From: an uncultured Eubacteriales bacterium
GTDB lineage: Bacteria > Bacillota > Clostridia > Lachnospirales > Lachnospiraceae
DNA: 34,348 bases
Direction of reading: 5' to 3'
Assembly (NCBI GenBank): GCA_900314565.1
Contig: OMVU01000069.1
Location: forward strand, 1-34,348
The position numbers were made by a program, and so were the translations under genes. Positions 1 to 29,176 of this stretch are shown here, one piece after another. Within the stretch, counting starts at the first letter, position 1. The number at the start of each line of letters is the position of its first letter. The notes under the pieces were generated by a model. It had not been told where the DNA came from. It was given only the letters and a program-made list of their open reading frames with translations, and did no database searches.

Positions 1-80
1 GGATACGTCCTTTTTTGATTATATTATAGCACATATGTTCGAGAATTGACGAACGAATTATACATCAGCAGAACAAAAAA

Positions 81-122
81 AGCGCATTCCTCTCATGACT
101 CAAGTCACGAGCATCCTGCGCT
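81..122. repeat. Intergenic palindrome family, copy 1 (minimal form)
   Basis: This is a near-perfect inverted repeat. Its outer arms AGCGCA (81-86) and TGCGCT (117-122) enclose a 20-bp palindrome at 92-111. The core has GACT/AGTC where the other copies have GATT/AATC, so both sides of the stem changed together. Only the hairpin is present here; the 89-bp companion module of copies 3 and 4 is absent. It lies 136 bp upstream of the transporter gene. It may be a terminator for a gene left of the window or a dispersed REP-like element. Confidence 0.75.
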
Positions 123-257
123 AGTTGGTGAAATTCTCTTTTACAGGATTTTTACATTGGAACGGACGGGATAATGCTATACTAAAGGGTAAGTTTGCTT
201 CATCAGAGCACACTTTCTTAATGAATCTGGTTTTTCTTCTAAAGGAGAATAAAAAAA

Positions 258-2160: not shown

Positions 2161-2251
2161 CTTCATCGCGAGATTGTACGCACGATGAAGCAAGAGTTCA
2201 CTTTGCGCCCGTATCTCATGATTAAAATCACGAGTATTGCGCGATGAAGAA
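2159..2251. repeat. Intergenic palindrome family, copy 2 (three-arm form)
   Basis: The core palindrome CTCATGATTAAAATCACGAG is at 2215-2234. The outer arm CTTCATCGCG (2161-2170) can pair either with CGATGAAG (2183-2190) or with CGCGATGAAG (2240-2249). The sequence AGTTCACTTTGCGC between the inner arm and the core is shared, as reverse complement, with copy 4. The arm sequences differ completely from copies 3 and 4, but the arm relationships are the same. The element begins inside the T-run of the preceding terminator. Confidence 0.75.
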
Positions 2252-2397
2252 TAAGCGGGAATATTATGTGGAAACTAACCGAATTCGTGTTATACTAATA
2301 CAGCGTGCGCTGAAAAGGATTTTTCACCATACGACTTTTTATGCAAGCGCAGGACATTCCAATGTAAACGTACATCGTGTAATGAACAGGGAAGCGA

Positions 2398-7955: not shown

Positions 7956-8102
7956 ATCAAGAACGCCTCGGCGTTCTTGCCGCGCCGCGCGAGGTGCGAA
8001 GCACCTTCCTAATTGCGCGGCTGCGATCCGCCGGAGGCTTTAATCTCTGACGCGCATTCATCTCATGATTGAAATCACGAGAATTCTGCGTCAGAGATTA
8101 AA
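7956..8102. repeat. Intergenic palindrome family, copy 3, with 89-bp hairpin module
   Basis: It occupies most of the 7850-8284 spacer. 7956-8044 is an 89-bp module identical, in reverse complement, to 29088-29176. It contains two perfect hairpins, AAGAACGCC/GGCGTTCTT and AGGTGC/GCACCT. Next come long arms TTTAATCTCTGACGC (8039-8053) and GCGTCAGAGATTAAA (8088-8102) around the core CTCATGATTGAAATCACGAG (8062-8081). The inner third arm of copies 2 and 4 is missing. The preceding 7850-7955 stretch shows only weak GC-rich inverted repeats. Confidence 0.85.
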
Positions 8103-8126
8103 AATGGTTGGCCCGCCCCCCTGATC

Positions 8127-8212
8127 GTTCGTATATATCTGTGAGCCGGTAAAAAAGGTTCACAGATTGTTCGTATATAACTGTGAACCGGCAAAAAGGT
8201 TCACAGTTTTTT
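8127..8212 (+). terminator. Tandemly duplicated terminator-like hairpin
   Basis: Two consecutive near-identical units of about 40 bp each begin GTTCGTATATA. Unit 1 has stem CTGTGAGCC (8139-8147) and GGTTCACAG (8157-8165). Unit 2 has CTGTGAACC (8181-8189) and GGTTCACAG (8198-8206), followed by TTTTTTC. Only unit 2 has a proper T-run. The pair could end transcription from the thioesterase side or act as an attenuator ahead of the gene at 8285. Confidence 0.7.
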
Positions 8213-8730: not shown

Positions 8731-8832
8731 AAAAGGCTGCCGCACGAAGGAAAGGCTGCGCTGCCTGCGGACGACATTTGCAACCAATGCCGTTCGCAGG
8801 GGCGGACCGAATTCCCGGTGCGGCAGCCTTTT
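8731..8832. terminator. Long hairpin terminator with imperfect inner stem
   Basis: Outer arms AAAAGGCTGCCGCAC (8731-8745) and GTGCGGCAGCCTTTT (8818-8832) are perfectly complementary over 15 bp and end in T-runs on both strands. The 70-bp interior holds a second imperfect stem (CTGCG..ACG.CATT against AATGCCGTTCGCAG). It suits bidirectional termination. Confidence 0.8.
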
Positions 8833-8842
8833 CTATATGTTT

Positions 8843-8919
8843 CCGCGCACAGCTGCGCGATGGGGAAGGTGCTTTGCACCTCGCGCGGCGCGGCAAAGAC
8901 GCCGAGGCGTTCCTGAAAT
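8843..8919. repeat. Diverged partial copy of the 89-bp hairpin module
   Basis: It matches the right part of the module at 29130-29176: the hairpin AGGTGCTTTGCACCT, then CGCGCGGCGCGGCAA, then AGACGCCGAGGCGTTCCT. The AAGAACGCC/GGCGTTCTT stem has decayed. No core palindrome is attached. It lies in the 8711-9055 spacer between the terminator and the XRE-HD gene. Confidence 0.65.
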
Positions 8920-28985: not shown

Positions 28986-29176
28986 TTTAATCTCTGACGC
29001 AGAATTCTCGTGATTTCAATCGTGAGATGAATGCGCAAAGTGAAACTTTTCTCTGACGTGGGATACAAACCCGCGTCAGAGACAGAGATTAAAGCCTCCG
29101 GCGGATCGCAGCCGCGCAATTAGGAAGGTGCTTCGCACCTCGCGCGGCGCGGCAAGAACGCCGAGGCGTTCTTGAT
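28986..29176. repeat. Intergenic palindrome family, copy 4 (three-arm form) with 89-bp module
   Basis: The order on the plus strand is as follows. Arm 1 TCTCTGACGC is at 28991-29000 and the core CTCGTGATTTCAATCGTGAG at 29007-29026. GCGCAAAGTGAA comes next, then arm 2 TCTCTGACG (29050-29058), loop GGGATACAAACCC and arm 3 GCGTCAGAGA (29073-29082). A 6-bp duplication CAGAGA follows, then the 89-bp module 29088-29176, identical to the reverse complement of 7956-8044. Arms 1 and 2 are direct repeats and both complement arm 3. The rest of the 28867-29412 gap is the coaX terminator and the DUF4349 leader. Confidence 0.88.

Follow-up and report, generated by a model that had tools for sequence, protein, structure and literature searches.

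The insertion sequences of the IS200/IS605 family, IS608 and ISDra2 among them, have subterminal imperfect hairpins, a Y1 transposase (TnpA) and TnpB, and insert 3' of a short site that is kept in the left flank. The cleavage site of IS608 is paired by a four-base guide on the 5' side of the hairpin, crosswise at the first two positions, and insertion has been redirected in the laboratory through changes of the guide (both as given in excerpts of PMC5934647). PATEs are short gene-less elements with transposon ends, and their movement is believed to depend on TnpA acting in trans; one PATE-like copy is reported among 23 elements in the part of PMC7290912 that is drawn on here. REP/BIME sequences and REPINs, with their TnpA-REP (RAYT) proteins, are intergenic palindromes that number in the hundreds and bear a guide-like tetranucleotide at the foot of the hairpin (excerpts of PMC8266576 and PMC6006769), this tetranucleotide being GTAG in REP hairpins (PMC8266576, likewise in excerpt).

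The DNA analysed here, referred to as the window, is a stretch of 34,348 nucleotides from an uncultured bacterium of the Lachnospiraceae. Its four dispersed palindromes most probably do not represent a new RNA. They are, with high probability, the left-end hairpins of IS200/IS605-type single-stranded DNA transposons, copies 2-4 being short non-autonomous, PATE-like relatives. The likeness to IS200/IS605 covers the imperfect hairpins close to the ends, the presence of Y1 TnpA and of TnpB, insertion 3' of a short site retained in the left flank and, as in IS608, a guide 5' of the hairpin that cross-pairs with this site. Unlike the known members of that family, several guide/site combinations are found on one hairpin core within one genome, and most copies are gene-less. 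Unlike PATEs, two classes of small element (C and D, below) account for 65 classed copies in one genome, and their body is a modular folded domain rather than just two ends. Abundance between genes and a guide-like tetranucleotide at the hairpin base are also traits of the REP/BIME and REPIN palindromes; here, in contrast, a constant GTAG is absent and the presumed cognate transposase is an insertion-sequence TnpA encoded beside tnpB. The BOX and RUP elements of pneumococcus are short modular intergenic repeats with variable modules, comparable in that respect and different in their ends and in the type of transposase proposed.

An earlier note on this DNA had described four palindromes sharing one core. 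At up to three mismatches the core, CTCATGATTGAAATCACGAG, is found four times in the window (92-111, plus strand, 3 mismatches; 2215-2234, plus, 1; 8062-8081, plus, 0; 29007-29026, minus, 1), the mean for shuffled sequence being 0.01, with 0 of 100 shuffles reaching four. The 4.22-Mb genome holds 95 copies at the same threshold and none of the reversed pattern that serves as control. The family is therefore borne out, and the possibility that it has no further copies in the genome is excluded. The noted exchange of GATT/AATC for GACT/AGTC in copy 1 is real, and the letters of the outer arms do vary from copy to copy with complementarity kept. The description of the copies is corrected in three respects: copies 3 and 4 continue into a right-hand module, copy 4 is oriented opposite to copies 1-3, and copy 1 is no free-standing palindrome but the final 127 bases of a long element, present in many copies, that the contig end cuts.

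Read in the orientation CTCGTGAYT..ARTCATGAG, the copies divide into classes that are defined by the letters preceding the hairpin. The fetched loci contain 103 sites at no more than five mismatches: 38 of class C, 27 of class D, 12 of class B, 10 of class A, 11 class A right ends and 5 unclassed. Class A left ends consist of TTCAC followed by CAACTAGCGCAGGATG (the 11 right ends read ...GGTACAAG), class B of TTGAA and AAACAACCGGCGCATT, class C of TTTAA and TCTCTGACGCAGAATT, class D of TTTAT and TCTTCATCGCGCAATA. The five-base site is separated from the hairpin by 16 nt in every class consensus; exceptions are the left end of the element on contig C107 (17 nt) and two D copies with an extra base. 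Copy 1 of the window belongs to class A, copy 2 to class D, and copies 3 and 4 to class C. Two loci combine classes: C160:107378 (L049) is a hybrid in which one hairpin joins a left end of class B to a right end of class A, and at C169:37156-37198 (L070) a class B copy is directly followed by a class A left end.

Its sequence identifies copy 1 as the left end of a tnpB-carrying element that is complete in the related genome G041. In the window this end occupies 1..127 on the minus strand, with its hairpin, CTCGTGACTTGAGTCATGAG, at 92..111 (minus), its guide GATG at 112-115, and the insertion site TTCAC (GTGAA on the plus strand) retained in the left flank at 128..132 (minus). Of 13 matches to the class A end, ten span 99 or more of the 141 query bases, and each of these ten lies no more than 90 bases from a contig end, as is expected of a long multi-copy repeat. 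Thirty bases of the class A end recur without mismatch in RUG13128, RUG13087 and one more MAG. The complete G041 element, whose end the window end matches, is 1480 bp long (L132, 886-2365), with a hairpin copy at each end, the right-end copy being followed by TTGAC. It encodes a TnpB of 392 aa (PF07282, 4.2e-21; PF01385, 1.3e-10; NF040570, 4e-57). The element lies inside galT and is inserted exactly after TTCAC. When the galT flanks are joined without it, they read ...FIGTVNAK*; galT is uninterrupted in G000 and G034, where it ends ...FIVTVNAQ* and has GTGAA (TTCAC on the opposite strand) at the same place. For this one class A element, exact insertion 3' of a short site without target duplication is thus directly visible. 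A 45-nt remnant at C62 consists of a left end, one hairpin and a right end, and has its right flank in common with a long class A copy in G034, which implies that short solo forms can arise from long ones.

A second gene-carrying element, on contig C107 of G000, has both genes. It comprises TTGAA, a left-end hairpin (CTCGTGACTTTAGTCGTGAG), a Y1 TnpA (PF01797, 3.1e-43; NF033573, 7.9e-43), a TnpB-like protein (guided_TnpB, 8.7e-22, below the model cut-off) and a right-end hairpin (CACGCGACTTTAGTCGTGTG) followed by AGGC and then TTCAC. The two hairpins differ by compensatory outer pairs, CTC/GAG on the left and CAC/GTG on the right. Class A and C107 elements, with TnpA and/or TnpB between their ends and a subterminal hairpin at both, have IS200/IS605 ends; the class C/D left end likewise has the features of this family, in its hairpin and in its guide/site match. 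The TTGAA ... GCGCATT-CTCGTG hairpin left end lies upstream of five of seven examined TnpA genes whose products are at least 58% identical to C107 TnpA (C107, C100, G026:C28, G005:C61 and G030:C84), and is missing upstream of the other two (C189, and G025:C110, which is decayed and has two stops). In G026, the left end next to TnpA is the sole match of the hairpin model in the whole genome. Autonomous elements whose left end is of class C or D did not turn up.

The sequence on the 5' side of the hairpin corresponds to the insertion site. For the last two guide positions, the pairing rule applied is in part general background on IS608. All four positions pair at the left ends of class A (TCAC/GATG), class B (TGAA/CATT), class C (TTAA/AATT) and class D (TTAT/AATA), the C and D sites having first been placed one base later (TTAAT, TTATT) and then shifted to fit the 16-nt spacing of A and B. 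The right ends of class A and of the C107 element pair at three of four positions, the third place being A opposite A. Left ends in relatives score four (G032, TCAA/GATT), three (G025, TGAT/CACA) and three (G027, TTAA/GATT). Over the 11 ends scored, 40 of 44 positions pair. Removal of two TTGAA/CATT repeats and of the G027 variant (3/4) leaves eight distinct ends with 29 of 32 positions paired, a value that is equalled or exceeded by 2 of 40,320 permutations. Single copies are less uniform: among the 87 left ends of classes A-D (that is, excluding the 5 unclassed sites and 11 right ends), 56 pair at all four positions and 31 at fewer. Their mean is 3.40 pairs, as against 2.52 for shuffled assignments and a maximum of 2.77 in 2000 shuffles. 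The consensus of class C and that of class D pair at all four positions, as do 21 of the 38 C copies and 15 of the 27 D copies. The short targeting sequences seem to have shifted along with the sites of insertion.

The remaining three window copies are small elements of classes C and D. Copy 2, of class D, is gene-less and consists of a left module only (2161..2250, minus strand, the left limit being set by eye); its hairpin, CTCGTGATTTTAATCATGAG, is at 2215..2234 (minus), its guide AATA at 2235-2238, and its insertion site at 2251..2255 (minus) reads CTTAT, the class consensus being TTTAT. Copy 3, of class C (7956..8097, minus), has suffered an internal deletion and retains a right module; the hairpin, CTCGTGATTTCAATCATGAG, is at 8062..8081 (minus), the guide AATT at 8082-8085 and the site TTTAA at 8098..8102 (minus). 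A second match to the right module, in reverse orientation, is found at 8850-8916, just downstream of copy 3, within another palindromic intergenic stretch (AAAAGGCTGCCGCAC arms at 8731-8832), and direct repeats around CGTATATA.CTGTGA.CCGG.AAAAAGGTTCACAG occupy 8125-8210, between copy 3 and the next gene. Copy 4, also of class C, is a full-length gene-less element of 186 nt (28991..29176, plus) preceded by TTTAA (28986..28990, plus). It is made up, in order, of left arm, left-end hairpin (CTCGTGATTTCAATCGTGAG, 29007..29026, plus, with guide AATT at 29003-29006), second hairpin, closing arm, and a right module with the terminal letters ...CAAGAACGCCGAGGCGTTCTTGAT (29094..29176, plus), which is the best of 40 scored among 235 genome candidates.

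The common plan of C and D elements has a nine-base arm before the guide, a repeat of this arm at 21-24 nt beyond the hairpin, and the arm's complement, which closes the module, at 44-49 nt; repeat and complement are both present in 24 of the 65 G000 copies. The arms occur in three versions across the genus (TCTCTGACG, TCTTCATCG, TCTTTGACA). The 83-nt right module follows the left module in 23 of the 65 copies, is also abundant alone (40 scored of 235 genome candidates), and also follows another left module, E. This E module (TTTATCTCAGTGGGGAAGACCCCCGCTTCTATAAGCGGGGG...CCCCACTGAGATAAAC), which has a different hairpin and precedes the right module at L133-L162 (for example at L149, L150 and L158), may represent the left end of a further IS200/IS605 group. 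At L144, L153, L024 and L109, extra modules (GCCTCAGCTACACAATG...CATGCTTAGGC; GATCTTATCGGAAG...) stand between left and right modules, and the result is a mosaic of small stem-loop domains. C/D right modules end in CTTGAT or CTTGAA. The base after the final CTTGA varies with the left module (T in 10 of 13 C, A in 8 of 10 D and in 10 of 11 E), suggesting that left and right modules travel together. This right end is unlike the known autonomous right ends in the ten tnpA/tnpB and neighbouring loci scanned. The right module is present in none of the same ten, and the idea that C/D elements carry omega RNA was rejected. Insertion of C/D elements into terminators, an impression gained from their flanks, was also discarded: a terminator-like hairpin lies directly upstream of 14 of 65 copies and of 137 of 1000 control sites, which is not a significant enrichment (p 0.096).

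Copies 2, 3 and 4, which is to say all three gene-less copies of the window, are missing at the matching sites of both relatives compared, G034 and G041, the intergenic DNA being diverged there; at two of the three sites G034 has other elements of the same kind. It follows that no gene depends on the copies at these places. No target duplication is seen by eye at C/D elements.

The earlier note took the covariation of the arms as a sign that a folded RNA or a hairpin DNA is under selection. That a folded strand is under selection is supported. The alignment used (A1) contains 72 distinct sequences drawn from 84 distinct 55-mers, 11 right ends and L112 being removed and L066 shifted by one base. 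Of its stem cells, 93.5% are paired, G-T and T-G wobbles being held on the CTCGTG strand, and arms that vary without complementarity are confined to single decayed copies. Two-sided stem changes number 25 cells, as against 5.3 in shuffles (0 of 500 reach this value), and are concentrated in two pairs. As many pairs with two-sided changes (3) arise in 238 of the 500 shuffles, and as many pair types (11) in 78 of them; the shuffles ignore kinship. The covariation is real, and it reflects transposon hairpin families rather than RNA; the GACT/AGTC exchange, in particular, is an exchange between transposon families and not inside one palindrome family. The inner stem of C/D elements is species-dependent, being GACT/AGTC in G009, G011, G012, G030 and G035 and GTCT/AGAC in G021, as though it were tracking the local transposase (L217, L232, L219, L215, L220, L221).

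Of the two forms that the folded strand might take, hairpin DNA is favoured over RNA on three grounds: the core forms the subterminal hairpin in elements of IS200/IS605 type from this genome and its relatives; in single-stranded DNA folds the CTCGTG strand of all four window hairpins pairs without mismatch, whereas the complementary strand has mismatches in three and does not fold in one; and there is a match between the insertion site and the letters 5' of the hairpin. A structured RNA family, transcribed and serving as 3' end hairpins, terminators or stability elements, with RNA folding as the source of the covariation, is accordingly improbable. Its attractions are that the copies are mostly intergenic, that the arms covary in three versions and that copy 4 has a strong RNA fold with a closed multi-branch left module (-93.1 kcal/mol, z -7.3, for the 191 nt that include the site). 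On the other hand, the same 191 nt also fold strongly as DNA (-57.6, z -8.7). Rfam 15 yields no match above the gathering score over the window and none up to E 0.1 over L132, L009 and L066. An RNA family would also leave unexplained the guide/site match and the sharing of the hairpin with tnpA/tnpB element ends, and it sits poorly with the absence of copies at the matching sites of relatives and with the unenriched terminator-like hairpins upstream. The intergenic placing itself is marked: ORFs of at least 100 aa contain 16 of the 65 C/D copies, as against 422 of 565 random positions. A riboswitch-like alternative pairing, in which the closing arm has two possible partners, was dropped when the hairpin proved to lie at the ends of tnpA/tnpB elements.

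REP-like sequences moved by a domesticated RAYT, and not by an insertion-sequence TnpA, would also be numerous, intergenic, palindromic and species-patterned, as these hairpins are. This explanation is quite unlikely. C107 TnpA, the one protein scored against the RAYT model, gives 145.7 bits as an IS200/IS605 transposase (cut-off 55) and 38.1 as a REP-associated one (cut-off 80). It is located between element ends and is followed by tnpB, and the four bases ahead of the hairpin change with the site (GATG, CATT, AATT, AATA) instead of being a constant GTAG. That C and D are ordinary MITEs, mobilized by a DDE transposase and merely carrying the hairpin, is very improbable even though the left module, that of E (with other letters) included, is bounded by inverted repeats of ~15 bp (TTTAATCTCTGACGC / GCGTCAGAGATTAAA), as further modules usually continue beyond the inner repeat, the inverted repeats are class-specific and the inner hairpin common (the reverse of an ordinary MITE), and no target duplication is apparent by eye.

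If the palindromes are ends of IS200/IS605-type transposons, their movement can be pictured by analogy with IS608. A Y1 TnpA encoded elsewhere in the genome would bind the hairpin on one DNA strand, and the four guide bases 5' of it would pair with the site (TTCAC, TTGAA, TTTAA and TTTAT in A, B, C and D, respectively), so that the element is inserted just 3' of the site without target duplication. TnpA of the C107 type would move classes C and D in trans, and would presumably cut their right end, CTTGAT or CTTGAA.

An extension of this scheme, put forward tentatively and with a little less than an even chance of being right, is that one hairpin and one TnpA lineage serve several families in which guides have drifted together with sites (TTCAC, TTGAA, TTTAA, TTTAT, TTCAA, TTGAT), making up a natural retargeted series within which non-autonomous families multiplied. 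These families may have exceeded 100 copies after gaining an AT-rich intergenic guide and the folded arm-hairpin-arm-complement domain. What sets these small non-autonomous elements apart is the use of several guide/target codes on one hairpin and the arm-hairpin-arm-complement layout. Within one genome and throughout the genus, families with a common hairpin differ jointly in guide and site, and natural retargeting is therefore open to experiment with ready-made pairs. The families also show a possible direct origin of REP-like repeats from a still recognisable insertion sequence. The literature covered, which takes in few subscription journals and is represented in part by excerpts, contains no report of such a family in Lachnospiraceae or of natural guide/site covariation inside one genome.

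Across the genus, the hairpin model matches 18 of 42 genomes, in numbers from one copy to at least 136 (per-genome counts were made with stricter filters and are lower bounds where only 136 candidates were scored). Hairpin-rich genomes are G034 (at least 136), G011 (at least 96), G041 (49) and G027 (26); a close TnpA was not found in these four, which are many-contig assemblies. The seven genomes that do have a close TnpA, defined as at least 58% identical (a limit chosen after the list was seen), all fall within the 18 genomes with hairpins (p 0.0012).
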